Made by a program: the position numbers and the translations under genes. The notes beneath the pieces are model-generated. The model had not been told where the DNA came from and did not search any database. It was given only the letters and a program-made list of their open reading frames with translations. Below, in pieces: positions 17,410 through 35,050 of a DNA stretch of 64,000 nucleotides. The DNA comes from Thioalkalivibrio paradoxus ARh 1 (lineage in GTDB: Bacteria > Pseudomonadota > Gammaproteobacteria > Ectothiorhodospirales > Ectothiorhodospiraceae). The stretch is from the NCBI RefSeq assembly GCF_000227685.2, contig NZ_CP007029.1:1152501-1216500 (forward strand), given 5' to 3'. The first letter of the stretch is position 1; every line of letters starts with the position of its first letter.

Positions 17410-17669
17410 TGTTAGCCTATATCGAGCGACAGGCCGGAACCCTGCGCAGCTGGCGGGGTTCGTTCCACCGCCTCGCGGCCGTTGCCGTCCCGACGTTGAT
17501 CATCACTGGCACGGACGATCGCATCATCCCGCCCGAGAACGCGGAACTGCTGGCCCAAGGTCTGCGCGATTCCCGTGTCGTGAAGATCCAAGGCGGCGGG
17601 CATGGTGTGCTGTACCAGCAGCCGAAACGACTGGCCGAGTTGATCTCAGCCTTCCTGGCCCCCGATTGA
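17409..17669 (+). pseudogene. C-terminal fragment of an alpha/beta hydrolase
   Basis: Only the last 86 residues of an alpha/beta-hydrolase fold protein remain: VAVPTLIITGTDDRIIPPENA carries the triad Asp region and GGGHGVLYQQPKRLAELISAFL the triad His. The nucleophile-serine half is absent, because the frame begins directly at the end of the P element. I read this as a gene truncated at the repeat, not as an active enzyme. Confidence 0.8.
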
Positions 17670-17981
17670 GGCGCGTTCGTGCGTTCCGGTGGAACAGTGC
17701 GGGGCAACGGCGTGCCGGGCGCCCTGGATGGGGTCCGTAGAGCGAGGAACCCGACCGCCACTGTGGTGGCCGACGTCCAGCCGCGTGGCCTTGGGCGAGG
17801 CGACCGAAGTTGTGCTGCAGCTCGCAGTGGCCGGCTCACCCTGCCTGAGACCCGAGCCTGTGCGAGCACCCCGGTAAGCGGTCCGCGAACGCTGGTGCGG
17901 CCCTGTACAGACCCCGTGGAGCGCAATCCTGGTCCTGAATGCGCCCACGGGCACCGCTCAGCAGCCGGACGCGGTGCGCGA
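17670..17981. other. No supported gene
   Basis: The frames here are short, in conflicting phases and without motifs. The region separates the hydrolase remnant from the 3' end of the EPS operon. Confidence 0.5.
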
Positions 17982-19361
17982 CTATCTGGGCGCGGACGGC
18001 ATCCGGTGGCGGGGGCGGCGTAGCAGCGTTCCGATGAACAGCGCGAGCACGAACTGGGTGGCCGGAATGTGCCAGCTGAAGTCGCCCAGACCCACCATGG
18101 ATAGCGCGGCGAGCCCGGCATAGAGGGCGATTCGCTCGGTACTCAGGTGTGCGGATCGGATCAGGGCCATGACCACAGCTGCCAGCAGCAGCAGTCCTGC
18201 GAGCCCCATTTCCACCAGCCATTGCATCAGGTCATTGTGCGCGTAGTCGTACCAGCCGCTGATATGCCCCGGCTGGAGCTGCTTGAACACGGCCTCGAAC
18301 CCGCCCAGCCCCACCCCGTGCAGATACCACTGCCAGGGGAGCTCCGCGAGCATCAGCGTGGCCACCTCGAAGCGCCCCTCATCGATGCCGGTGGCCAGCA
18401 GGCGTGCAGCGAGGGGAGTCAGGCCGTACCAGGCCGCGGCCAGCAGAGCGGCTGCCAGCGCTAGGTACGCCGGCCAGGCCGAACGGGCGTGCAGCAGATG
18501 CCGATGCCGCGACCACAGCACCAGCGCCACCAGCATGCCGGCGATCCCTGCGGCACTGCCGAGGCGCGAGGCACTGGCCAGCAGCGCGGCGCCGATTATC
18601 GCGCTGGCCATCAGGCTGCCGGCGACCTTCAGCTCACTCGGCAGCCTGCCCAGCAGCGGCATGTCGCGGATCCACCACACCGCGACCGACATCGGCCAAA
18701 GCAGCGCCAGATAGGCCGCGAACAGGTTTCGGTTGCTGAAGCTCCCATGTACGAAGTCCGGATTGTTCCGCGGCCAGATGCCGAAGATGCTGTCGGCACC
18801 GGCGGCGTGCGCGGCGACTCCATAGCCCGCCTGGAACAGGGCCATGCCTACCAGCCCGAGCCAGATCAGATTGCGCTGGGTGCGGCGCAGGCCATGGGCA
18901 ATCCACGCGGTGGTGAACAACGCGACGAATGCAGCCCAGCCTCGCAGGGTCGCACCGACATCGGGCGACCAGTGGCGCGGTTCGAATTCCGGATGCAGCC
19001 AGAGTGCGTCGGGGTACGCGCCGAACGCCTGCGCCAGCGTCGGCAGCGGCAGCACCTGAACGAGCACCAGCGCGCTGAAGACAGCTCCGAATGCCAGCCA
19101 GCTGCGCGCCGGTGGAGCCAGAGCGCCCTGCGGTGGCAACATCGCCAGGATTCCCGCGAGCAGCGCCGCGGAGGTCATCAACAGCAGGCTGGCCGTCATT
19201 GCCTCCGGGGTACGGTTGCCCAGCATCAGCGGCAGTGCGAGCGCCGCCAGCGCGAGCACGAGAGTCGCACCCCAGACGCCTGGGCCGGCAGACAGCTCAG
19301 GGTGGCGGTCCTGCCGTCTGCGCCGCCGACGTGGGCCGGCGTCAGTACTGGATGCTGTCAA
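17982..19361 (-). CDS. O-antigen ligase/polymerase family protein (WaaL/Wzy-like)
   Basis: A 459-residue polytopic inner-membrane protein with about eleven hydrophobic segments. The large periplasmic loop contains NPDFVHGSFSNRNLFAAYLAL and, before the late helices, YAHNDLMQWLVEMG, matching the His/Asn/Glu motif of the O-antigen ligase superfamily. As the last gene of the EPS operon, a Wzy-like polymerase for the exported polysaccharide is most likely. Its start overlaps the end of the J-domain gene by 20 bp, implying translational coupling. Confidence 0.9.
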   Translation of the reverse strand: MTASSTDAGPRRRRRRQDRHPELSAGPGVWGATLVLALAALALPLMLGNRTPEAMTASLLLMTSAALLAGILAMLPPQGALAPPARSWLAFGAVFSALVLVQVLPLPTLAQAFGAYPDALWLHPEFEPRHWSPDVGATLRGWAAFVALFTTAWIAHGLRRTQRNLIWLGLVGMALFQAGYGVAAHAAGADSIFGIWPRNNPDFVHGSFSNRNLFAAYLALLWPMSVAVWWIRDMPLLGRLPSELKVAGSLMASAIIGAALLASASRLGSAAGIAGMLVALVLWSRHRHLLHARSAWPAYLALAAALLAAAWYGLTPLAARLLATGIDEGRFEVATLMLAELPWQWYLHGVGLGGFEAVFKQLQPGHISGWYDYAHNDLMQWLVEMGLAGLLLLAAVVMALIRSAHLSTERIALYAGLAALSMVGLGDFSWHIPATQFVLALFIGTLLRRPRHRMPSAPR

Positions 19362-21657
19362 TCCGCCATTCCTCGAACTGATTCAGGATCCGGTACCGGA
19401 TCGGTCCGCTGGCCCGCACCCGGGGCTGATCGGGATAATCGACCTCGAGTTCGAACCGGGCCTCGACCAGCCAGCCGTCGGCCTCCGGCTGGATGCTCGC
19501 GATCTCGACCCGAAGCACGCGAGCCTGTGAGCGCTGGAAGAGTTGCAGGTACCTTTGCTGGAACCAGTTCCGGCCACGGTTCGCATTCTCGGTGGGCGAT
19601 AACGTGAGGTGCTGGAGAAAGGCATGGAGATCGCCTCGTTCGAAGGCACGGCGGTACCCCTCGATCAGCGACCGGATCTGCTGCTCGGCGTTCACGGCCG
19701 GGGCCGCCGTCACCGTGCGGGACGGCGCGGGCGGCTCTGCGGCAGATGGCGACTGCTGGTGGACGTTGGCCGACACGGGCGGTCTGGCACCATCTCTGGC
19801 CGGCGGCGATACCGGGCTGCGAGCACCGGCTTCGCTGGCGCTGGCCGCTTCGGACGGCGGATCCATGCGGTGCTCGGGGCGATCGGGCTGCTGCGGAGCC
19901 GCCGCAGGCGGTTTGCTCTGCTCGGGGCGATCGGGCTGCTGGGGAGCCGGCGCAGGCGGTTTGCTCTGCTCGGGGCGATCGGGCTGCTGCGGAGCCGGCG
20001 CAGGCGGTTCGCTCTGCTCGGGGCGATCGGGTTGTTGCGGAGCCGGCACACTTGGTTCGCTCGGCTCGGGGGTGCGGGTGGTGCCGCGGCTGTCGGGCAC
20101 ACGTCTCTCCCGGGCCTCTATGCCCAGAGCGGCGGAGGTGTCCGGCCGGACCGTGGACCCGGTGGCATCCCGTGCTGGACGGCTTCGATCCGAAGCCGCT
20201 TCAAGGTCCTCCAGCGCCGCCTCGGTCGAGGCGCCGGAAATGTCCCGGTCTGCAACGGCAGCGGCCGAATCCGGGGGCGACACAGCCGCCGGGGAATCGG
20301 CGCCGGCCTCCGGTGTGTCGCCACGAACAGTTGCGGCCGGTGCCGAGGCGGCTGACGGCCGCCCATCGTCGGGCGGAACCGCAGAGCCTGCGTCCGCGCG
20401 GGCGGGGGCACCCGCTTCCGGGTACACGGGAGGTACCCACGCGACGAGCGGTTCGGGTACCGGCGGTGCCTGCTCGGAAGTCGGATCCGGCGGGTTCGAG
20501 ATGCGGACTGCACCCGCTCCGGGAGAGGCTGCGCTCCATTTCGTGCTCGCGGGCGCGAATCCAGAGAAGTGGGTGGTGGGGTCACCAGACTCCGATCGCT
20601 GGGACATGCTGAGTGAACTCAGCGGTCGGGAGAGCGCAACTCCGGGAATCGCACGGGTCCCGGCCAGCGGCTCCAGAGACCTATCGGGAGCGAGCTCGAT
20701 CACGGGAGGCTCCTCCACGGGCGAGGCCTCTATCGTCTGCACGCCGGTCAGCACCGGATCATCATCGCCACCGGCGTTCTCCTGCGGTTGCGAAGCAGGT
20801 GCAGGCTGCGTGCGTTCAAGCGGCCCCGGTGGCCCGGAATCCACTCTCCCGTGCGCCTCGCGCCCGCCCGCTGCAGAGGCGAGCCGGTCATCGGCCCCGG
20901 GGTGATCTTCGCCTGACCAGCGATCGATGCCGGCGGTCCCGTCGTGGCCCGCAGAGGCATGTTCCAGCGCCTGGGGTTCCGGGGCAGCGACCAAGTCGTG
21001 CCCGGACTCCGACTGCGCCCCGCGGGCCGGGCCCTGGGTCAGGTAGATGTGCAGAACCGGGAGGAAGGCCATGATCGCGACCAGGGTCAGGATCTTGGCT
21101 TGCAGGTTGCGCACCTGGGCCAACTGCCCCCGGAGTAGAACCAGCAGTCCGGGCCCGAAGTGAATCCGGCGCCATCGCCGGCGGGCCACCGGTGCGGGCG
21201 CCCCATGCCGCGGGCGCATGGCCTGAGTCTGCGGCGGCGCCGGCTCCCCGGCTGCGGCGTTTCGCCGGAAGCGCGCGTAGGCTTGGTGGATGGCCTGCGA
21301 TCGCGGTGTCACCCATTGCACGAGTTCCGGGTGGCGGTCCGGGTGGAAGGCCGCCATCAGGCGGCGGTAACGGACACGCCGCGCCTCGACCGTGAGCCGT
21401 TGCCCGACGCCGGCGGCCTCTTCCTGCAGGGCCCCATCCCGAAAGATCTGCCGGTCGAGCTGTTCGAAAATCCGGCGCAGGAGTTCGGGGTCGGTCTGCG
21501 ACGGCCCCAGGTACTCGGCCAGGGGCGCTGCGAAACCGGCATCACCAGCGGCGATCCAGGCCAGCACGGCGTCGAGTTCGCGATCGTCGAGGCGCCATGC
21601 CATGCCCTGCCGAAGTCGGCTGGCAAGGGCTTGCAGATTGTCGTCGGAGGCAGGCAT
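19342..21657 (-). CDS. J-domain membrane protein with proline-rich stalk and NTF2-like domain
   Basis: A 771-residue protein in three parts. Residues about 90-135 form a J-like domain with HPD at 105-107 (AAFHPDRHPELVQW). A single helix near residues 187-206 crosses the membrane. A long Pro/Ala/Ser/Glu-rich disordered stalk includes four copies of a 16-residue unit (PEQSEPPAPAPQQPDR-like). The last about 115 residues resemble an NTF2/SnoaL-like fold (IRSLIEGYRRAFERGDLHAF, ending FEEWRIDSIQY). The likely layout is a cytoplasmic J-domain recruiting DnaK and a periplasmic C-terminal domain. It sits inside the EPS operon between the TPR protein and the polymerase; a role in secretion-machine assembly is inference. 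Confidence 0.8.
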   Translation of the reverse strand: MPASDDNLQALASRLRQGMAWRLDDRELDAVLAWIAAGDAGFAAPLAEYLGPSQTDPELLRRIFEQLDRQIFRDGALQEEAAGVGQRLTVEARRVRYRRLMAAFHPDRHPELVQWVTPRSQAIHQAYARFRRNAAAGEPAPPQTQAMRPRHGAPAPVARRRWRRIHFGPGLLVLLRGQLAQVRNLQAKILTLVAIMAFLPVLHIYLTQGPARGAQSESGHDLVAAPEPQALEHASAGHDGTAGIDRWSGEDHPGADDRLASAAGGREAHGRVDSGPPGPLERTQPAPASQPQENAGGDDDPVLTGVQTIEASPVEEPPVIELAPDRSLEPLAGTRAIPGVALSRPLSSLSMSQRSESGDPTTHFSGFAPASTKWSAASPGAGAVRISNPPDPTSEQAPPVPEPLVAWVPPVYPEAGAPARADAGSAVPPDDGRPSAASAPAATVRGDTPEAGADSPAAVSPPDSAAAVADRDISGASTEAALEDLEAASDRSRPARDATGSTVRPDTSAALGIEARERRVPDSRGTTRTPEPSEPSVPAPQQPDRPEQSEPPAPAPQQPDRPEQSKPPAPAPQQPDRPEQSKPPAAAPQQPDRPEHRMDPPSEAASASEAGARSPVSPPARDGARPPVSANVHQQSPSAAEPPAPSRTVTAAPAVNAEQQIRSLIEGYRRAFERGDLHAFLQHLTLSPTENANRGRNWFQQRYLQLFQRSQARVLRVEIASIQPEADGWLVEARFELEVDYPDQPRVRASGPIRYRILNQFEEWRIDSIQY
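19873..20064 (-). repeat. 48-bp tandem repeat, four units
   Basis: Four consecutive 48-bp units starting CTCGGGGCGATCGGG (plus strand), at 19873, 19921, 19969 and 20017. They encode four 16-residue repeats in the stalk of the J-domain protein; units 2 and 3 are nearly identical and unit 4 has diverged. Confidence 0.95.
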
Positions 21658-21886
21658 GCGTGTAGGTCAGCGATCCGTTCGATTGTGTGACGGGACGGCT
21701 TCGGGGGCCTGCAGGCGGTAGCGACCCTGTGCGGGAACGCGAACGGACGAACTTGCCGGCATCGGGATCGCCCCGGGCCGGCGGGCAAGGCCCCGCGCCG
21801 GTGTGTCATGCCCAACACGCGAAACGCCGGCAACCCGCGAAGCACGCCAATCCCCGACACTCGGGCCGTCGCGGGTTGCTGGGTGT

Positions 21887-23143
21887 TCAGGGCTCATCGG
21901 AATCCATCGTCTGCAAGGGCGCTGGTTCGACGCGCAGTGCATCCAGCCAAAGCCGGCCCGCCAGGTAACGGTCGAAGTCCCGGGCCGGCGGGTCACGCCG
22001 AAGCTGCAAGTGGAGCATTCTACCGCCCTCTGGGGTGTCGAGTTCCACCCGAAACGGCTGCCAGTCGAATTCGGATCCAGGGGCGTCCACCCGCGTCCTT
22101 CTCCCACCATCGGCCCAGGCCGAGAGATAGGGCAGGGCACGTGTGGTGAGCCCTTCGGCCCGCCAGTGGCCGGAAACGGTCCAGCGCTCGACGCCTGCCG
22201 GTACCGGAATTCGCACCGAAGGGGCAGTCAAACGCAGGTTTTCGGTCCCGTCGAAATCCAACCGGAGACTGGCAGGTTCGGTGAAATAGTGCTCCGGATC
22301 GAGTACGACTCGAGCGCCGGCCGGCACGCGTATCCGCCAGTGCAACCCACGCGGGCTGGCCGGCTCGTGGCGAAAATCGGCATTCGGAACCATCCCGTAT
22401 CGATAGTCGGGGAAGGTTTCGGCCCAGGCCCAGGCTGCCCGTTCGTGGTCGCCCTGCGCGAGCGCGAGATCGACGAAATCGAGCAGCGCACGATCCCCCG
22501 GCGGTCGCGGCCTCGACAAGCGTTCCCAGGCTTCTGCCGCCAGATCCAGCCGCCCGTGCTGGCGGGCAGCCGCGATCGCGGCTTCGAGGTAGGGGTCACC
22601 GGGCGGCAGAATGCGGTCCAGCAACTGTGCCGGGTCGTCGATCCAGCGCATCGCGACGAACAGCGCGCGGTGCGTGCCGGCAGGTTGCCCCGCCAGCCAG
22701 TCACGCAGGTGTTCTTCCGTGCGTTCAACGCGGCCCAACTGCTGGGTGATCGTCGCCGCGCGCCACAGCAATTCGCGATTGTGCGGCTGCGCCGCAAGCG
22801 CCGCATCCAGATGCGCCAGCACGGCGTCGGGGTCGGCATCCTGCAGGCGTGCGAGTCGGGCACGATCCGCCCAGCGCCAGGGATCCAACGGGTAGTGCCG
22901 CAAATGCCAGGCAAGGGCCTCGTCGACCGCGGGCGGGTCGCGACGCCAATGGGGCTCCAGCGACGCAGCGAGTTGCCGCCCGGCCAGCCCGCCCCAGGGG
23001 ACATTCGCCTGCACCGCCGCGAGACTCTGTGCCGGCTGTTGCGGGTCGACGCTACGCAGCCCGCGGTACTCGGCCCAGGCGATACCCGCCGCCAGCAGAC
23101 CGGCGAGCGGCAGCACCAGGCCGCGCATGGCGCGGGCGTTCAT
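21887..23143 (-). CDS. TPR-type protein with C-terminal sandwich domain, EPS-associated
   Basis: A 418-residue exported or anchored protein. The N-terminus has a hydrophobic signal (RGLVLPLAGLLAAGIAWA). The middle is a helical tetratricopeptide-like region (DPDAVLAHLDAALAAQPHNRELLWRAA). The last about 160 residues are beta-rich (HWRIRVPAGARVVLDPEHYF onward), resembling a carbohydrate-binding sandwich. It lies between the Wzc-like kinase (16 bp away) and the J-domain gene, in the same orientation. A periplasmic scaffold or glycan-binding role in EPS secretion is inferred from context. Confidence 0.75.
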   Translation of the reverse strand: MNARAMRGLVLPLAGLLAAGIAWAEYRGLRSVDPQQPAQSLAAVQANVPWGGLAGRQLAASLEPHWRRDPPAVDEALAWHLRHYPLDPWRWADRARLARLQDADPDAVLAHLDAALAAQPHNRELLWRAATITQQLGRVERTEEHLRDWLAGQPAGTHRALFVAMRWIDDPAQLLDRILPPGDPYLEAAIAAARQHGRLDLAAEAWERLSRPRPPGDRALLDFVDLALAQGDHERAAWAWAETFPDYRYGMVPNADFRHEPASPRGLHWRIRVPAGARVVLDPEHYFTEPASLRLDFDGTENLRLTAPSVRIPVPAGVERWTVSGHWRAEGLTTRALPYLSAWADGGRRTRVDAPGSEFDWQPFRVELDTPEGGRMLHLQLRRDPPARDFDRYLAGRLWLDALRVEPAPLQTMDSDEP

Positions 23144-23159
23144 TCGCGTACCGCCGGCG

Positions 23160-25523
23160 TCAGGACGCCTTGCTCAGATCCGGCTTTGGGGCATCCAACT
23201 GCTCCTGGCTGCTTTCGTAGTTGTAGTAATACGACGAGTAGTACGCGTAGTCGGGGCTCTCGAGATCGACCCGGTTGAGTACGACCCCCAGCACCGGCGC
23301 CTGCACCTGGTTCAACCGCCGGATCGCGACCCGGAAGCTCTCCTTTCCGGTCTGGCCCGAGGCCGCCACCAGAATCACACCGTCGACGATCCGCGACAGA
23401 ATCACTGCATCCGCCAATCCCAGGATCGGCGGCGCATCCACGACGACATGGTCGAAGATCTGCTTGCAGTCGGCCAGCACCTTGCCCAGGCGGCTGGAGC
23501 TGAGCAGCTCGGCGGGGCTCGGGGTGGAATGGCCCGCCAGCATCAGCGACAGGCCGTCCACGTCGGATGCGTGGATCGCCGGTCCTTCGACGATGCGGGT
23601 CTGATTGGCCTGAGCAATGCAATTGGTGAGCCCCGGCGACCGCGGTTTGCCGAAGTCCCGATGCAGCGCGGGCTTGCGCAGATCGGCATCGATCAGCAAT
23701 ACGCGGCTCCCATTCTGGGCGAGCACGGTCGCAAGATTGGCCGCCGTAGTGCTCTTGCCCTCGCTCTGCGCGGCGCTGGTCACGAGCAGTACCTTCGGCA
23801 TTCCCTCCGGAGTGGCAAACATCAGGCTGGTGCGCAGCGAACGGTAGGCCTCCGACACCGATGACTGCGGATGCTCTGCGCTGTAGTGGCTGAGCGAGCG
23901 GTCGGTGCCTTTCGACTTCTTCCGTCGGCTGCTGCTACGTTCACGCGGTCGCACCAAGGGCACGAGGCCTAGCACGGGCCGGTCCACCAAGCGTTCCACG
24001 TCCTCGGTACGGCGGATGGTGTTGTCAAGGAATTCGAGCAGCAATGCGAAGCCGATTCCGACCATCAGCCCGAGCATCGAGGCGATCGCGAGGTTCTTGG
24101 CCAATACCGGCTTGAATGGCGCAGCTGGCGTACGCGCCTCGTCGATCATTGAAATGTTGTTTTCCTGGATCCCGGCCGCGACGCCGATCTCCTTCATACG
24201 CTGCAGAAGGCCGTCGTAGAGTTCCTGGTTGGTCTCGAATTCCCGGCGCAGGATGTTGTACTGCACGCCCTGCTCGTTCAGCGCCATGATCCGTTCTTCG
24301 CGCTCGGCAATTGCGCGCTCGAGTGCGGCCTCCTGCGCGCGCAGGGTTTCGAACCGCCCCAGGATGCCGTCGGCGATCTTCTGCTTTTCGCTTGCGATCT
24401 CGGCGCGCAGAAGCTCGATCCGCCGCAGCGTCTCGGCCACCGTTGGGTAGCTGTCGAGGAAGCGCTCCGACAGGCTGGCATACTCGGCGTTGGCGTCGAG
24501 CAGCCGCTTCTGCAGATCGGCGATCGTGGTACTGTTCGCTATCGGATCGAGGTGATCGATCTGCCCCTGCTGCACGAGTTCGCGCCAACCGGAGAGCTGC
24601 ACGAGTTCGTTGCGCACATCGTCGAGCCGCTCGCTCAGGCTGCGCAGCCCTGCGCGTGCCATCTCCATGTTCTCGGCGAGATCGGATACATGCGCGTCGC
24701 GCGCGAAATCGGCCAGGGCGCGGTCGGATCTTTCCAGCGCGATGCGCATCTCGTCGAGCTGGGTCTGAAGGAACTTGCGCGCCTCGCTGCCGGCATCGTA
24801 GCGGCGCTGCATCGTGCCTTCGATGTACTCGCGCACCACGGCGTTGGCGACGCGCGACGAGAACTCGCGGTCGAAACTCACTACGCTGACCTGCACCAGG
24901 TTCGAGTTGCGAACCGGCTGCACCTCGATGCGACTGCGCAGGCGGCCTGCGGTGGAACGAACCGGATCCGCGGGCGCGGCCTCCGACACGCCTTCGGCGT
25001 CCTCGCCACCCACGGCGGGGCGGATCGCCGCCAGCAGCATGCCGGCCAGTTCGCGCATTTCGCCCATCACGCTGCGCTGGCGTATTTCGCCAGTCAGTTC
25101 CGGATGATCCTGCAGTCCCTCGCGCCGCACCACCGCCTCGGCCAGCGAGCGGCTGCGCAGGATCTCGTACTGCGTGGTCAGGAACTGTTGACTCCCGGCG
25201 GCACCGCGGGCGGAGGATTCGAAATCCTCGTAGGCGAGGATCCGTCCCCCCTCAGGCTTGATTTCCACCGTTGCCGTCGCGCGATATTCCGGAACCATCA
25301 GCAACGTGCCCATCGCGGTGGCCGTGAGCATGATCGCCAGCAGGCCGAACACGACCCATTTGCGCTTAACCAAAATCCGCCAGTATTCGCGCAGGTCGAT
25401 GCTGTCATCGTCCTCGGGCACGGACACGTGGGGATCGTAAACGGTCATCTGTCCGCCGGCCCCGCTGACCGGCTTGAGATGGTGGACCGGACGGTCCCTT
25501 TCCTTGTCCTTGTCAGAAGCCAT
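23160..25523 (-). CDS. wzc: Wzc-type polysaccharide co-polymerase / tyrosine autokinase
   Basis: A 787-residue bifunctional protein. The N-terminal Wzz/GumC-like domain begins IDLREYWRILVKRKWVVFG, with the first membrane helix near residues 55-75; a coiled-coil periplasmic region spans about 230-430; the second helix is NLAIASMLGLMVGIGFALLL. The cytoplasmic BY-kinase has Walker A SAAQSEGKSTTAANLA (about 582), Walker A' LLIDADLRKP (about 608) and Walker B VVVDAPPILG (about 694). The tail DYAYYSSYYYNYE holds seven tyrosines for autophosphorylation. It controls chain length and export with the Wza-like exporter and CpsB-like phosphatase nearby. Confidence 0.95.
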   Translation of the reverse strand: MASDKDKERDRPVHHLKPVSGAGGQMTVYDPHVSVPEDDDSIDLREYWRILVKRKWVVFGLLAIMLTATAMGTLLMVPEYRATATVEIKPEGGRILAYEDFESSARGAAGSQQFLTTQYEILRSRSLAEAVVRREGLQDHPELTGEIRQRSVMGEMRELAGMLLAAIRPAVGGEDAEGVSEAAPADPVRSTAGRLRSRIEVQPVRNSNLVQVSVVSFDREFSSRVANAVVREYIEGTMQRRYDAGSEARKFLQTQLDEMRIALERSDRALADFARDAHVSDLAENMEMARAGLRSLSERLDDVRNELVQLSGWRELVQQGQIDHLDPIANSTTIADLQKRLLDANAEYASLSERFLDSYPTVAETLRRIELLRAEIASEKQKIADGILGRFETLRAQEAALERAIAEREERIMALNEQGVQYNILRREFETNQELYDGLLQRMKEIGVAAGIQENNISMIDEARTPAAPFKPVLAKNLAIASMLGLMVGIGFALLLEFLDNTIRRTEDVERLVDRPVLGLVPLVRPRERSSSRRKKSKGTDRSLSHYSAEHPQSSVSEAYRSLRTSLMFATPEGMPKVLLVTSAAQSEGKSTTAANLATVLAQNGSRVLLIDADLRKPALHRDFGKPRSPGLTNCIAQANQTRIVEGPAIHASDVDGLSLMLAGHSTPSPAELLSSSRLGKVLADCKQIFDHVVVDAPPILGLADAVILSRIVDGVILVAASGQTGKESFRVAIRRLNQVQAPVLGVVLNRVDLESPDYAYYSSYYYNYESSQEQLDAPKPDLSKAS

Positions 25524-25603
25524 GACTTGCCTCGATTACAACAAAATTGGTCCAGCGTTGCGGCGTGGGCACCGGCGCCTCTCGCAGCATCGGCATTGGG
25601 CGC

Positions 25604-26653
25604 TTACAGGGGGCGGAAGCCCAGCAGTGCCAACCCGGGCACAGTCCGCCAGAATCCGGCCCATCCCGCCTTGAAACCATCGGTCTCGACCACGACGACA
25701 TCCCCGTTTTTCAGCGGTATATCGAGTTCCGGGTTGTCGCGGATCTCGGAATAGTTCACTTCCAGATGCTCCCAGTCGCCACTGCCCGCCGAACGCCGCA
25801 GGATGCGCATCGACGACCGGTTGGCTTCGAATTTCGGCCCCCCGGCCTCGGCCAGCGCCTTCAGCACGGTGATGTTCCCGCGTTGCGCAAACGCCCCGGG
25901 ACGGTTCACTGCCCCTTCGACATACACAAAGCCGCCGCGGGGTACGTTGACCAGTGCCGACTCGCCCAGCACCACGTTGTTCTCGCCGGCGTGGCGCATC
26001 AGGTCGTCTACCGGCACCAGCAGCGTCCGCACCTGCAATTCACCCGATTCGGGGTCGCGGACACGATCGGTGAGATAGATGGTATCGCCGGCGTTTTCGG
26101 TCACGCCGCCGGCCATCGCCAGCGCTTCGATCAGAGTCGTCTGACGGCTGACCGAATACACGCGCGGGTTGGACACCGCCCCGACGACGGTGAACTGCTG
26201 GCTGCGAAACTCGGTGACCCGGGCGCTGACCTGCGGGCTGCGCAGATAGGACTCGCCGTATTTCTCTGCAACCACCGCTTCCACTTCGTCCAGCGTCAGC
26301 CCGGAAACGGCCACCGCCCCGACCAGCGGCATCATGATCCTGCCGCTGCCGTCTACCCGGTATTCGCGCGAAAGCTCGGGAACGCCGAAGATATCAACCT
26401 GGATCTGATCCTCCGGGCCGACCCGGTATACACCGCCCCCGATCCCGCTCTCGGCGGCCAGCGACAGGAGCTGCTCGTTCACATCCTGGATACGGGCCTC
26501 GTTCGCGACCTGTTGCTGGAAATCGGCTGCCGCCGAGGGCTCGCCGTTGCCGCCCGAATGGGTGGCGCAGCCGCCGATCGCAAAGATCAGGGCCAGAAAA
26601 ACCAGCGCCATTACCCGCGCTGGCGCGCGAAAACATACCAACCTGTTCATCAT
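25604..26653 (-). CDS. wza: Wza-type outer-membrane polysaccharide export lipoprotein
   Basis: About 349 residues with a lipoprotein signal: a hydrophobic core VMALVFLALIFAIGGC, with the lipobox Cys followed by ATHSGG. The Poly_export domain contains YRVGPEDQIQVDIFGVPELS, followed by two SLBB-type segments (FTVVGAVSNPRVYSVSRQTT and VYVEGAVNRPGAFAQRGNIT). It forms the outer-membrane channel for the EPS with the Wzc-like partner encoded 80 bp downstream. The first codons read GTG-ATG-ATG after GGAG, so the start is 26653 or 26650. Confidence 0.93.
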   Translation of the reverse strand: MMNRLVCFRAPARVMALVFLALIFAIGGCATHSGGNGEPSAAADFQQQVANEARIQDVNEQLLSLAAESGIGGGVYRVGPEDQIQVDIFGVPELSREYRVDGSGRIMMPLVGAVAVSGLTLDEVEAVVAEKYGESYLRSPQVSARVTEFRSQQFTVVGAVSNPRVYSVSRQTTLIEALAMAGGVTENAGDTIYLTDRVRDPESGELQVRTLLVPVDDLMRHAGENNVVLGESALVNVPRGGFVYVEGAVNRPGAFAQRGNITVLKALAEAGGPKFEANRSSMRILRRSAGSGDWEHLEVNYSEIRDNPELDIPLKNGDVVVVETDGFKAGWAGFWRTVPGLALLGFRPL

Positions 26654-26699
26654 CACTCCTTGCGCGCGCCCGGTTACGCCGCCCGCATCACAATACCTG

Positions 26700-26724
26700 A
26701 CGCGCCCGGAAGTTCCGGGCGCGT
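26700..26724. repeat. Perfect 12-bp inverted repeat between fecR-like and wza genes
   Basis: ACGCGCCCGGAA and its exact complement flank one base. On the minus-strand transcript it would form a very stable hairpin in the fecR-wza gap, without a U-tract; it may partially terminate, stabilise the upstream mRNA or bind a protein. Confidence 0.6.
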
Positions 26725-26782
26725 GGCGCCCGCTCCTCGCAAACCCCCGAGGTGCGGGCGCACTGTTCCGGAAACCCGAACG

Positions 26783-27544
26783 TCAGGGGCTGACAGGATC
26801 GGGATCCGAAGAAGAGCTTGCGGCCGCACTCCCTGCGACGACGGCCAGTCCACCCCCGAGAAATGCCAGTCCCAACCCGTGTCCAGCCGCTCCGGCACCG
26901 GCTCCAGCCCCACCGCCGGCTGCCGCCGCGGCATCGGGGTCAGCAGCCTCGACCTGCGCCTGGATCAGCCCCGGCTCCTCACCGGAAAAGGTCACGCGTT
27001 CTCCGGCGCCGACGCGGTAGTAGACATTACCGGAACGATCACGCGCGGTCACCGAGCCTTCGCGCACGGTCACCTTGAGCTGGCCATCGTCCAGCCGCTG
27101 GATCAGCCCGAAAGAACCGGCATCCGTCGTGCCCACCTGAACGACTTCGCCGTCTGCCGCGGTGCTGAACTCGTACGGCCCGCTGCTGACATGCAGGCTC
27201 AAGCCCGGCTCGGGAAGCGCGTACAGCAACGAACCGGCGTCCAGGGCTACCTGGATCCGGCTTCCGTCGAGTGCCACCGAGGCCTGGGTGTCGGCCGCAA
27301 ATCCGACGCTGGCGCCGGCATCCAGATCCAGTACCGCGCGGCCATTGCGGGTGTCGATACGATCGCCGGAATGCCATGCATACTGGGTGTTGGCGACATT
27401 GATTCTGCCTTCGGAGCCCTGCTGGGCGATCCGGACAGTATCATGCGCGGTCAGTTCGCCGATGGCGCCGGCCAACGCTGGGCCACTTGCCGCCAGACCC
27501 AGAAATGCGAGGCCCACCAGCCCCGAAGTCAGCTTCGTTTTCAT
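26783..27544 (-). CDS. FecR-domain protein of the EPS operon
   Basis: A 253-residue protein with a clean signal peptide (ending SGPALAG) and a FecR-like beta domain (GDRIDTRNGRAVLDLDAGAS ... VREGSVTARDRSGNVYYRVGAGERVTF). The C-terminus is a Gly/Ala-rich hydrophobic helix followed by a short serine/acidic tail (SSSSDPDPVSP). It is therefore periplasmic, probably tethered by its C-terminus. It starts the fecR-wza-wzc part of the EPS operon; a role in EPS assembly is inference from location. Confidence 0.8.
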   Translation of the reverse strand: MKTKLTSGLVGLAFLGLAASGPALAGAIGELTAHDTVRIAQQGSEGRINVANTQYAWHSGDRIDTRNGRAVLDLDAGASVGFAADTQASVALDGSRIQVALDAGSLLYALPEPGLSLHVSSGPYEFSTAADGEVVQVGTTDAGSFGLIQRLDDGQLKVTVREGSVTARDRSGNVYYRVGAGERVTFSGEEPGLIQAQVEAADPDAAAAAGGGAGAGAGAAGHGLGLAFLGGGLAVVAGSAAASSSSDPDPVSP

Positions 27545-27583
27545 AGTCGATCTCTCCCAGTCGTTGAATCGATCCTTTCCGAT

Positions 27584-27699
27584 GCATGCCGAATTGGCAT
27601 GCCCTTTACTGCCGATGCACGATCGCTTGCACCTCGTCTCGGCGTTCTGGCCGGATTGGCCCGGCCAATACCATCTACTTAACCATAGCGGTTACCGCT
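27584..27699 (-). promoter_or_regulatory. Regulatory region with three palindromes upstream of the EPS operon core
   Basis: Between cpsB and the fecR-like gene lie three perfect inverted repeats: AGCGGTTACCGCT (27687-27699), ATTGGCCCGGCCAAT (27655-27669) and GCATGCCGAATTGGCATGC (27584-27602). The first two are about three helical turns apart. They are candidate operator sites for minus-strand transcription of fecR-wza-wzc. No clear -35/-10 pair stands out. Confidence 0.45.
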
Positions 27700-27794
27700 T
27701 GCGTGTGTGATTCGCACCTCATCCCTCACACGTCCCGCTCAAGGTGAGAGAACGCAGAACCCTCGGCTCCGGCAGGTCGATTGCGCCATCATAA

Positions 27795-28646
27795 TCAAGC
27801 ACGCAACCGGCCCAGCCAGCCCCGGATCCCGGCCCCACGCGGCGGCTGCCGCACGTTGTCCAGGCGCTCGGTCTCCACAGGATCGCCGGCGACCAAAGCC
27901 CGGGGAAAGTCCTCGGCCATCAGACATGCCGCGGCGCTGCCCACCCAACGTTCGAGCATTACGCGGCCCTGCGACAATTCGGGTACGCGCCGGCTGTCGC
28001 GGTGCGCATCGGATGCGACGATCTGAACCAGCCCCTGCCGAACCATGCTCTCGGCTGCCTGCTGCACACGCGGGCCGAAGCGGCCGTTGCAGGATTGCGC
28101 GGTAATCTGGCCGAGACAACCCATGGCGACCCATTCCGCAAGCATATCCGGGCTCGCTGCGACTTCGGCGTTGCGCTCGGGGTGCGCGATGATGGGCTGC
28201 AGCCCCATTGCGATCAGCTCTTCCAGGATCTCGGTGGCCCCGAACGGGACGTGGTGCACCGGCAGTTCCACCAACACTGCCCGTCCCCGATCCGCGACGG
28301 TCAGGGCACTGCCCGCGACCAAGGCTGCGGGCAGCTCCGGCACCAGGTGGCATTCCGATCCGGGAAAGATCGCGAGATCGATGCCTTCCCTACGCAGAGC
28401 CGCACGCAGCGACGCGCAATGGCCACGTACCCCGTCCGCCGGATTCCGGTAGACGCCATTGAGGTGGTGCGGTGTCACCACCAGCGCGCGGGTACCGTCG
28501 GCTACCGCCAGCCGTGCCATGTTCAGCGCCTGCTGCAGATTCTTCGCACCATCGTCGATTCCCGGCAGCAGGTGGGCGTGAATGTCCACCATGCCGGTCG
28601 CAGGTACTGCGAGGAACTCCATAGGTTCGGACATGGTATCGGCCAT
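27795..28646 (-). CDS. cpsB: CpsB/CapC-type PHP-fold tyrosine phosphatase
   Basis: A metal-dependent phosphatase of the PHP superfamily that dephosphorylates Wzc-type kinases. Motifs in order: DIHAHLLPGIDDG, TPHH, the Glu in FPGSECH, AHPERN and SDAH. Length is 283 residues if started at ATG 28646; homologues usually begin at the MVDIHAH position (28592), so the first 18 residues may be an extension or a mis-start. It is four bases downstream of the wecA stop and so co-transcribed. The partner kinase is encoded at 23160-25523. Confidence 0.93.
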   Translation of the reverse strand: MADTMSEPMEFLAVPATGMVDIHAHLLPGIDDGAKNLQQALNMARLAVADGTRALVVTPHHLNGVYRNPADGVRGHCASLRAALRREGIDLAIFPGSECHLVPELPAALVAGSALTVADRGRAVLVELPVHHVPFGATEILEELIAMGLQPIIAHPERNAEVAASPDMLAEWVAMGCLGQITAQSCNGRFGPRVQQAAESMVRQGLVQIVASDAHRDSRRVPELSQGRVMLERWVGSAAACLMAEDFPRALVAGDPVETERLDNVRQPPRGAGIRGWLGRLRA

Positions 28647-28650
28647 CGTC

Positions 28651-29751
28651 TTACCCGATCTCGGGCTTCAGCCTGCCCGCGGCCAGACGGCGCCGCCGCA
28701 GCCGCCGCATCGCACGCAGGAAATGATGGGCATTCAGCGAAAAACCGACATAGGCGAGCAGCAGCAGCGTAAACAGCGCGAACTGAAGGGGCTCCGGGCA
28801 ACTGCCAAAATGACAGGCCAGCGCCAGCAGCACCAGCGCCAGCTGGTTCCCAGCGATCAGCGCGACGACCGTGCTCACCGGAAAACCCGCCCGGCACAGC
28901 ACATGATGCAGGTGGGTACGATCGGCCGCGAGTGGGTTGCGGCCCCGGCGCAGACGGCGGAAGGACACGCTCAGGCTGTCCGCCGCCGGCAGCAACAGCA
29001 GAAACGCGATGGAAATGGGAGCCACGCTGGACGCGGGTCCTTGGGTAATCGCCACCGCCAGCCACGCCAGCACGAACCCCAGCACCATGCTGCCGCTGTC
29101 ACCGAGAAAGACCGCAGCCCGGCGCAACCAAGGACTGCGCAGGTTGAACAGCAGGAACGCGGCCAGACCGGATGCGAGCAGCACACCCACGGCCGCCTTT
29201 GCGTCCATCCCCGCCGACAACGCGAGCACAGACAGGCCCGCCACGGCCAGCAGGCTGATGCTTCCCGCCAGCCCGTCGATCCCGTCCATCATGTTGATCG
29301 CGTTGATCATGAATGCAACGCAGAGAATGGTGAATGCGGGTCCAACCCAGCCCAGGTTGAGTGGGCCGGTGCCGAGCAGGTTTCCAAGCGACACGATCTG
29401 CACGCCTGCTACGACCATGATCCAGGCGACCCCGAGCTGGACGACAAGCCGAACGATCGACCCGATGTCGACCAGATCATCGACCAGACCCAGCAGCCCG
29501 AGGACCACGACACCCAACGGAAGCGACCACAGCGCCCACCAGTTCACGGGGGTTAACGTGGCCGCGACGATCAGTGCGGCCAAAAGGGCCACCCCTCCGG
29601 TGAGCGGAACGGCACCCTCATGCCGCTTTCGATGGTTCGGCCTATCCACCAGCCCGAGCCGCATCGCGGGCCGGCGCAGTAAAAGTATACCGGCGCCGGT
29701 CAGGACAAAAGCCGCCCCGCCCCCCACCAGCACTCCATGCCCAAAATCCAC
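28651..29751 (-). CDS. wecA: WecA-type undecaprenyl-phosphate sugar-1-phosphate transferase
   Basis: A polytopic MraY/WecA-family enzyme that starts glycan synthesis by loading a sugar-1-phosphate (typically GlcNAc-1-P) on undecaprenyl phosphate. Diagnostic motifs: DRPNHRKRHEGAVPLTGG, LLGLVDDLVDIGS (metal-binding Asp pair), INMMDGIDGLAG, FLGDSGSM and DRTHLHHVL. Start: GTG 29751 follows GGAAGGAAGGGGGGC, an excellent Shine-Dalgarno, and gives 366 residues; the frame is open further but those codons look non-coding. First gene of the minus-strand EPS operon. Confidence 0.93.
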   Translation of the reverse strand: MDFGHGVLVGGGAAFVLTGAGILLLRRPAMRLGLVDRPNHRKRHEGAVPLTGGVALLAALIVAATLTPVNWWALWSLPLGVVVLGLLGLVDDLVDIGSIVRLVVQLGVAWIMVVAGVQIVSLGNLLGTGPLNLGWVGPAFTILCVAFMINAINMMDGIDGLAGSISLLAVAGLSVLALSAGMDAKAAVGVLLASGLAAFLLFNLRSPWLRRAAVFLGDSGSMVLGFVLAWLAVAITQGPASSVAPISIAFLLLLPAADSLSVSFRRLRRGRNPLAADRTHLHHVLCRAGFPVSTVVALIAGNQLALVLLALACHFGSCPEPLQFALFTLLLLAYVGFSLNAHHFLRAMRRLRRRRLAAGRLKPEIG

Positions 29752-30104
29752 GCCCCCCTTCCTTCCGACCTCCGGCCGGCGCCCCGTGGTCGACTGGCGC
29801 CACGGGCGGATTCCAACGTCGCCGGCTCGCGCCGGCAGCTTCCTACGTTCGTCTAGCGGACCTTGCCGGCAAACAGCGAGTGAGTCAATAGGATGTATAC
29901 CCATTGACAATCGCTTGTCGCAGCCAGAACGCAGGACTCGCCCACGCACCGTGGCGGAAAGCCGACGCGGCAGTCCACCCCCCCCATCGTCACTGCGAGG
30001 AGCCCACGGGGCAACGTGGCAATCCACACGCCGCCTGGATCGCCACGGGCATTCGGATGCGGTGCGGATGCCGCGAAGCCCCTGCTACACTCGGCCTCAT
30101 GCGT
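29752..30104. other. Intergenic region upstream of wecA with G-repeat fragment
   Basis: The leader/promoter region of the EPS operon, divergent from the accessory island. A G-element fragment begins GTCACTGCGAGGAG near 29990 and runs to about 30050. No gene is supported. Confidence 0.5.
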
Positions 30105-33134: not shown

Positions 33135-33374
33135 AGCCTGGGCGCAACGAACTACTGCCTGCGCGCGCTGATCGACAAGGGGCTGGTGAAGGCCGAGAAC
33201 TTCCGCAAGAGCCACCGTAAGCGCGCCTACCTCTACCTGCTCACCCCGGCGGGGCTTGCCGAGAAGCTGCGCGTCACCCGCGCCTTCCTGGCGCTGAAGC
33301 AAACGGAGTATCGGGCCATCGAACAGGAGATCGAAGCGCTGCGGCGGGAGTTGCGTAACCTGTCCCCAGAATAG
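33135..33374 (+). pseudogene. 5'-truncated copy A of the EPS-associated MarR regulator
   Basis: From LGATNYCLRALIDKGLVKAE to the stop this matches the later intact MarR copies, but the first about 33 residues are missing and are replaced by R-element DNA. It is more diverged than the others (LTPAGLAEKLR, ending LRNLSPE), so it is probably the oldest copy. No start codon remains. Confidence 0.85.
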
Positions 33375-34647: not shown

Positions 34648-34852
34648 GTTAACGTGAAAGAACCCGCGGCGCGCGTCCGGGGTGACCTGTAGGGCGGAAA
34701 AGCGCAGCGTCATCCGCCGCTCGGCGTTCGCGCCTCCCCGGCGCCTGCGGCACCCCGGGCGCCGGCTGGCGGATGACGGCCTTCGGCCTTTTCCGCCCTA
34801 CGCCTACGCCACTTTCATCCTCATGGGGTGGCTGCCCGGGCCATGACAGTTA
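34648..34852 (-). repeat. P element copy 4
   Basis: Runs from GTTAACGTGAAAGAACC to CATGACAGTTAAC; the arms begin at TAGGGCGGAAAAGCGC (34692) and end CCTTTTCCGCCCTA (near 34801). First of a direct tandem pair. Confidence 0.88.
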
Positions 34853-35050
34853 ACGTGAAAGAACCCGCGGCGCGCGTCCGGGGTGACCTGTAGGGCGGAA
34901 AAGCGCAGCGTCATCCGCCGCTCGGCGTTCGCGCCTCCCCGGCGCCTGCGGCAACCCCGGCGCCGGATGGCGGATGACGGCCTTCGGCCTTTTCCGCCCT
35001 ACGCCTACGCCTCTTTCATCATCGGGGGTGGCCTAGGGTCATGATCGTTA
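34849..35050 (-). repeat. P element copy 5
   Basis: Nearly identical to copy 4 and directly adjoining it, sharing the GTTAAC junction; it ends GGTCATGATCGTTA. The pair fills the gap between the broken MarR copy B and the next toxin-antitoxin module. Confidence 0.88.

Follow-up and report, generated by a model that had tools for sequence, protein, structure and literature searches.

A conserved J-domain and NTF2-like membrane protein predicted in an exopolysaccharide operon of Thioalkalivibrio paradoxus, and its modular relatives

We analysed a 64,000-nucleotide stretch of the Thioalkalivibrio paradoxus ARh 1 genome (contig NZ_CP007029.1, positions 1,152,501 to 1,216,500; hereafter the window) that carries a gene for a membrane protein with a J-like and an NTF2-like domain. 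Judged from sequence and model comparisons, this window protein is a real, conserved protein of an exopolysaccharide (EPS) operon and forms one branch of a modular family. A sequence-only reading of the same DNA had proposed a cytoplasmic J-like domain, one transmembrane (TM) helix, a stalk and a periplasmic NTF2-like domain. This layout was borne out by profile, hydropathy and AlphaFold2 (AF2) evidence, and it is conserved. We regard it as an even call that the protein belongs to a Wzc/Wza/Wzy-type complex for EPS assembly and export, as a component in the inner membrane whose J module would recruit the chaperone DnaK in this clade. The features of the gene are as follows (aa, amino acids; HMM, hidden Markov model; TRF, Tandem Repeats Finder).

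19342..21657, (-) strand: J-TM-stalk-NTF2 gene; single open frame, ATG start, 771 aa
21238..21657, (-) strand: cytoplasmic N-terminal extension and J domain, aa 1-140 (J part ~aa 57-137), from clade alignment A1, AF2 helices and profile matches
21337..21345, (-) strand: HPD motif, aa 105-107, residues checked in the sequence
21037..21093, (-) strand: transmembrane helix, aa 189-207, hydropathy 2.19, the sole TM; AF2 helix 170-207 at modest confidence
19708..21036, (-) strand: periplasmic stalk, ~aa 208-650 (433 aa by HMM boundary; about 440), Pro 17%, Ala 18%
19871..20071, (-) strand: 48-bp tandem repeat, 16-aa unit; TRF 4.2 copies, 92% matches
19345..19707, (-) strand: periplasmic NTF2-like domain, ~aa 651-771, from the AF2 model and structure and profile matches

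The window protein and its domains

Profile searches were needed to recognise the J module, because a PF00226 search of the T. paradoxus genome returned four other J proteins and missed this gene, and a single-sequence search of the PDB with the window protein gave matches at E 0.18 and 0.52 only. Searches with the N-terminal part and with the whole protein yielded A1, an alignment of the N-terminal parts of 12 clade rows, the window included. The sequence AAFHPDR is invariant in all 12 rows, as are a Trp seven residues past its Arg and some stretches of the N-terminal extension. Queried against PDB sequences, the A1 profile had J domains as its top matches (2ctp_A, E 6.7e-4); DNA polymerase beta entries reached E values of at least 0.12 and aligned to a different part. 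An hhalign comparison of the clade N-terminal part with a separately aligned wider J set gave an E-value of 8.7e-10 over 107 columns, including part of the N-terminal extension, and all nine proteins scanned from that wider set passed the Pfam DnaJ cut-off. The AF2 model of the N-terminal part (four sequences, predicted local distance difference test (pLDDT) score 77) places helices at 57-71, 90-103 and 110-137, flanking the HPD motif on both sides, which fits the place between helices II and III that the motif has in class C/III J-domain proteins. Structural alignment of this model with VIA-align returned 6jmg_B (Z 7.8, root-mean-square deviation (rmsd) 2.7 over 79), 6rzy_A (Z 6.0) and 2qwo_B (Z 5.5), the last being the J domain from an Hsc70-auxilin complex, with unrelated helical folds at similar Z. 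The alignment with the orthologue in G013, the nearest relative, begins at the same Met as the start codon used here.

On reading the sequence, the N-terminal flank of the TM helix is strongly basic, so by the positive-inside rule we infer an N-in/C-out orientation. The stalk that follows is predicted to be long, flexible and disordered. The four 48-bp stalk repeats claimed by the sequence-only reading were confirmed: TRF found a single 48-bp array in the whole window, and at a lag of 48 the match is 134 of 144 positions, compared with at most 70 across 1000 codon shuffles of the stalk. The repeat units read PAPQQPDRPEQSKPPA, with minor variations between copies. That the repeat varies stalk length was also proposed. 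Here the array is real, but it was found in the T. paradoxus genome only. Because G013 has a single unit and no array, and because stalks in the nine clade proteins with both ends visible span 38 to 452 aa, a tenfold range, large stalk differences arise by other means, and we rejected the repeat as their source.

Between the window protein and its G013 orthologue, identity over aa 212-645 is 45% with 39 gap columns. Such fast evolution would fit ordinary drift, in which a decaying J protein hitch-hikes in the operon and a low-complexity stalk grows by slippage. A 183-aa remnant in genome G030 (L088:1371-1916 on G030:C94) would fit it too: the N-terminal extension is fused straight to the NTF2-like domain, and the J core, TM helix and stalk are missing, through either a deletion or an assembly error. 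However, the folded ends are conserved (85% identity over aa 1-140, 89% over aa 141-211 and 79% over aa 646-771), and the gene position is kept across families. We consider drift very improbable.

The AF2 model of the periplasmic head (two sequences, pLDDT 82) has the NTF2 fold, with helices followed by a curved sheet as in the NTF2-like superfamily, and its match to 3rob_A reached Z 16.6 with an rmsd of 1.9 over 120. The head profile matches NTF2 and ketosteroid-isomerase chains (3f7x_A, E 3.5e-4), and the heads of relatives L077 and L089 score above the Pfam cut-off for SnoaL_2 or DUF4440. The fold is shared with Csd6, Pgp2, Bd1075 and the RsgI9 S1C-NTF2 bi-domain (Z 13.9-15.1; Csd6 15.1). 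Rv0361_Cterm was matched weakly by the window protein (E 0.02) and by L089 (E 8.6e-5), both below the cut-off. In all of these the NTF2-like domain sits on other proteins, and the likeness to the head of the window protein is one of fold.

The closest layout is that of ARC6 from plastid division, whose counterpart in cyanobacterial division is named Ftn2. In PMC3196505, ARC6 is described as an inner-membrane protein with a J-like domain at its N-terminus, located on the inner side as in the layout of the window protein; it serves organelle division, and J-like is defined there as lacking HPD. The head model also matched ARC6-type intermembrane-space domain structures (5had, E 5.6e-4; 5d9r, E 8.5e-4). 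A Pfam scan of 12 domains returned SnoaL/DUF4440-type models and no ARC6-type model, although whether the library includes one was left unchecked. The likeness of ARC6 and the window protein is of layout and fold, and is probably convergent.

The exopolysaccharide operon

The proposed location within an EPS operon was upheld, as Pfam identified CpsB, Wza, Wzc with its bacterial tyrosine kinase (BY-kinase) domain and Wzy_C together, the same components as in Wzc/Wza/Wzy-dependent EPS systems. To our knowledge, the standard systems have no J-TM-NTF2 component. All genes lie on the (-) strand, and the transcription order is WecA-like, CpsB/CapC, FecR-like, Wza-like, Wzc, TPR-like, J-TM-stalk-NTF2, Wzy_C:

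17982..19361, (-) strand: Wzy_C / O-antigen-ligase-like membrane protein, directly downstream; PF04932 41.3 bits, above cut-off
21887..23143, (-) strand: TPR-like membrane protein, upstream; PF14559 weak (E 0.0046, below cut-off), position conserved
23160..25523, (-) strand: Wzc-like chain-length protein with BY-kinase domain; Wzz, GNVR, AAA_31, and TIGR01007 170 bits, above cut-off
25604..26656, (-) strand: Wza-like outer-membrane export protein; Poly_export, SLBB
26783..27544, (-) strand: FecR-like periplasmic protein; PF04773 E 0.0064, below cut-off
27795..28646, (-) strand: CpsB/CapC tyrosine phosphatase; PF19567 165.6 bits
28651..29733, (-) strand: open reading frame (ORF) in the same place in G013, by reading presumably a WecA-like initiating sugar-phosphate transferase

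Across 17500-30000 the scan found no promoter-like sites and five terminator-like ones, against 5.7 in shuffles. Elsewhere in the window, five similar short genes (LKPFPEETRLKVMRLLAENPELTQRELAE...) lie at 33186, 37495, 40789, 45624 and 51378 on the (+) strand, spread over 18 kb amid polysaccharide-type genes. By reading they resemble a repeated winged-helix regulator, with only the C-terminal piece present at 33186. A 201-bp tandem duplication, 96% identical, lies at 34648-35032.

Relatives and their interchangeable modules

Searching the family with the whole protein matched 11 of 47 genomes, and the N-terminal part matched nine, all of the same genus as the window; a search at order level draws on these same 47 genomes. 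We set aside two further N-terminal rows (E 6.5e-4 and 9.4e-4), of which one is CbpA-like by reading and the other lacks an HPD frame. Of the 12 clade rows, 11 come from eight genomes of the genus, G031 giving three and G032 two. The twelfth is L007, from a Wenzhouxiangella metagenome-assembled genome (MAG), and its contig stops within the stalk; the remnant of G030, one of the nine genomes, stands outside the 12. Wzc was present on the same locus in all 12 clade loci, the window counted, either adjoining the gene or one gene off.

Three genomes of the genus show other arrangements. G035 has an XrtA-type ATPase-NTF2 protein in the operon slot of the J protein (L089:812-3382; TIGR03015 301.3 bits, just under the cut-off of 324.5), and the N-terminal search found no J gene in this genome. 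G029 shows just the stalk-NTF2 end in that slot, at a contig edge. G031 carries two full J-NTF2 genes and a headless 250-aa J-TM protein (L081), followed by a separate ATPase gene truncated by the contig end.

Beyond the clade, a bridge is provided by L051/L077, a protein of a different family within the class, which scores above the cut-off for both DnaJ (52.5 bits) and SnoaL_2 (28.2 bits), with a TM helix between them. Its locus reads Wza-Wzc-[L077]-TPR-like position-Wzy-CpsB; the neighbour in the TPR-like position (orf441) had no Pfam match, and a relative of it in L121 matches TPR_19 weakly. The head profile A2, built without L051, still retrieved the C-terminal part of L051 with E 3.1e-11 among 3699 ORFs. 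Exchanging row L021 of A2 for L051 gave profile A3, which matched the NTF2-like domain in 38 of 369 genomes of the class, its weakest rows (mostly frames of ~140-165 aa) being small soluble NTF2-like proteins. The architecture, called uncommon in the sequence-only reading, is thus unusual in layout but less rare than supposed. In the A3 search the score of G061 is inflated because its sequence is part of A3, and the order around G061 amounts to one genome. Across the phylum the domain is rare: a draw at E 1e-6 matched four of 398 genomes, counting T. paradoxus, and in two of the four the frames span only 145 and 164 aa.

The A1 profile matched 106 of 369 genomes in the class. Among 17 loci that we opened (15 from this search and two from the family search with the N-terminal part), the TM-stalk-NTF2 layout appeared in L051 only; the other 16 were DnaJ/CbpA- or DjlA-type by reading or lacked an HPD frame, which we took as backing for A1 being a J profile. 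Spirochaete loci L008-L010 were rejected as relatives, as their similarity is limited to the HPD region. One of them, L008:7701-8138 from a spirochaete MAG, encodes a small separate J protein with an HPD region like that of the window, adjoining a WecA-like transferase gene (by reading).

Several cytoplasmic layouts were found on the same TM-stalk-NTF2 part. The J-TM-stalk-NTF2 form recurs in distant relatives of the class, with a Pfam-grade DnaJ domain and in the same operon. An AAA+-TM-stalk-NTF2 form was also seen, its AAA+ recognised by BLAST to the ATPase part of L089. Fused AAA+-J-TM-stalk-NTF2 proteins occur in L124, L128, L131, L132, L137 and L139, and a receiver domain stands between J and TM in L135 (PF00072, 78.3 bits) and, by reading, in L138. 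L144:7685-10264 has two tandem J-like domains in one EPS protein, neither with HPD, and two tandem C-terminal NTF2-like domains were found in L124, L128, L148, L151 and L159. The hydropathy scan found no TM helix above threshold in L126, L132 and L140. Two J-NTF2 genes share their EPS operon with a gene for a free NTF2-like protein, located past the TPR-like gene (L135:11728-12294 and L138:11662-12225); by reading, the N-terminus of these free proteins is signal-like.

The AAA+-J fusions, the ATPase-NTF2 protein in the G035 slot and the J-TM gene followed by an ATPase gene in G031 together indicate that the modules are functionally linked. The XrtA/PEP-CTERM system-associated ATPase (TIGR03015) bears a homologous stalk and NTF2-like domain in this genus and takes the slot in G035; its cytoplasmic module is an AAA+ ATPase, whereas Pfam and NCBIfam scans matched no AAA domain in the window protein, which by this measure is not an XrtA-type ATPase. 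As the same TM-stalk-NTF2 part bears AAA+, AAA+-J or J-receiver modules in relatives, what has been conserved is probably the coupling of the periplasmic NTF2-like head with a cytoplasmic module that either has a regulatory role or uses ATP.

The direction of such coupling could also run inward: the NTF2-like head might sense periplasmic polymer or wall fragments, with the cytoplasmic J, receiver or AAA+ module as an output that tunes synthesis. The receiver domain of L135 would suit a sensor, as would a head fold common to the RsgI9 bi-domain, Csd6, Pgp2 and Bd1075. Yet the window protein has no output domain besides J, a disordered stalk of more than 400 aa would presumably relay conformational signals poorly, and free NTF2-like proteins adjoin L135 and L138. 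We consider a sensor role unlikely.

The HPD motif and the case for DnaK

If the window protein does recruit DnaK, its J module, with the HPD motif and a basic helix II, would bind and stimulate the cell's DnaK at the membrane. DnaK would then remodel or reset a cytoplasmic partner, the likeliest clients being the Wzc BY-kinase rings or the polymerase/ligase, and the NTF2-like head may dock on the growing polymer or a periplasmic partner, thereby placing DnaK action at working export sites. Wzc is a possible client because its gene is adjacent and because a BY-kinase was reported to phosphorylate DnaK in B. subtilis (PMC4835898). In the T. paradoxus genome the only full-length DnaK scores 885.7 bits and a partial match to the HSP70 family reaches 41 bits, so a dedicated Hsp70 is not apparent.

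Chaperone recruitment, suggested in the sequence-only reading, is plausible for the clade, because HPD is invariant in its 12 rows and helix II is as basic as in DnaJ-type proteins of the same genome. Over the 14 residues before HPD, the mean charge is +3.9 in the clade (3 to 5) and +4 and +5 in two DnaJ-type proteins of T. paradoxus; elsewhere it is +1.4 in other HPD rows and +0.9 in HPD-less rows.

DjlA combines an N-terminal TM helix with a C-terminal J domain and a TerB-like domain; we know of no periplasmic NTF2-like domain in it. The J domain of the window protein is N-terminal to the TM helix, the reverse of the DjlA order, and its NCBIfam matches include no DjlA model. As a precedent, E. 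coli DjlA is likewise a membrane-anchored J protein that acts with DnaK and GrpE (PMC11709261). Its overproduction raises capsule synthesis through Rcs, which needs the HPD His, DnaK and GrpE, and IgaA-RcsD binding is weakened (PMC11709261). DjlA acts on a regulatory phosphorelay, unlike the role proposed for the window protein.

A number of results weigh against a DnaK-recruiting J module, starting with the fold itself. In the Pfam scan the window protein scored 11.8 bits against PF00226 DnaJ, below the cut-off of 27.8, and Foldseek with the AF2 model of the N-terminal part gave no match better than E 1.7. For DjlA, PMC11709261 reports no detected effect of its deletion on Rcs signalling. Within the wider family, 45 aligned J rows have HPD in 26, QPD in two and other triplets in 17, so that HPD is absent from 19. 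Rows that scored no higher than 60 bits do not enter this count, nor do duplicate loci, the remnant in G030, the first of the two J copies in L144 or four canonical J proteins. Of the 26 rows with HPD, 12 belong to the clade and 11 to other genomes in the order of G114, and the remainder are L077, L142 and L121. The 19 rows without HPD include all six J domains fused to AAA+. Wza and Wzc lie beside four of the 19 HPD-less rows; this is a lower bound, since BLAST was run only against the proteins of this operon and of L077. Among the rest, four have an SLBB-type match, one has CpsB and ten have nothing detected. Because HPD is lost while the fold is kept, and because four such genes still stand beside Wza and Wzc, DnaK appears dispensable for the general role of the family. 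With an ATPase in the G035 slot as well, and no J gene found in that genome, a chaperone role is not family-wide, and the earlier suggestion is supported in part.

These rows bear on the main rival, in which the J-like fold would serve as a platform for docking and act without Hsp70, binding Wzc or another J-like module, with HPD retained for structure or binding. Pfam DnaJ remains above its cut-off in HPD-less L122, L135, L144 and L131, as expected of a fold kept for docking, and the chloroplast J-like protein CJD1, which lacks HPD, offers a precedent: it did not bind Hsp70 and bound ARC6 in yeast two-hybrid assays (PMC3196505). Against this, the clade keeps both the motif and the basicity of helix II in full, though identity to the window protein over the J part is just 40-52% in ten of the other eleven rows. 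Moreover, Wzc is beside the gene in 25 of 26 HPD rows (13 of 14 outside the clade), and the remaining row has a contig edge there, while downstream of its gene come the TPR-like gene and Wzy. Docking without Hsp70 is a possibility to be taken seriously, but a doubtful one.

How firmly the motif is tied to operon type or to the presence of the ATPase depends on the number of independent changes. On a tree of the J and NTF2 columns in which HPD itself was masked, and which drew long-branch warnings, HPD state changes once (one to three times in bootstraps), with a branch support of just 40/82. The link consequently amounts to about one event, a further point against recruitment. The tree itself gives no direction; loss is the natural one, as canonical J domains have HPD. 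We also compared 34 genomes, some of the MAGs being incomplete, for TIGR03015 matches of at least 200 bits, which occur in nine of 18 HPD genomes and all 14 that lack HPD, as well as in G035 and G029; the T. paradoxus genome itself reached 49.6 bits only. Nine ATPase-bearing HPD genomes fit poorly with the idea that HPD is kept because the ATPase is absent, or that J stands in for it, and this too counts against the proposal. Since the AAA+-J fusion is itself among the ATPase matches in six of the 14 HPD-less genomes, the comparison is partly circular, and the ATPase-or-J pattern is suggestive.

Tentatively, the arrangements can be drawn together as a modular family of the EPS machine, in which a common TM-stalk-NTF2 part might carry swappable units, namely an XrtA-type AAA+, an AAA+-J, a receiver or a DnaK-borrowing J, with DnaK as the ATP-using unit in this clade. 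In the literature searched, with subscription papers mostly outside its scope, we found no description of an EPS export complex that includes a J protein, or of a modular TM-stalk-NTF2 family with J. The replacement of modules on one periplasmic head, by AAA+, J or receiver, makes the roles of both the J domain and the XrtA-type ATPase testable. If DnaK recruitment holds true, polysaccharide export would be one more process with DnaK tethered to it.

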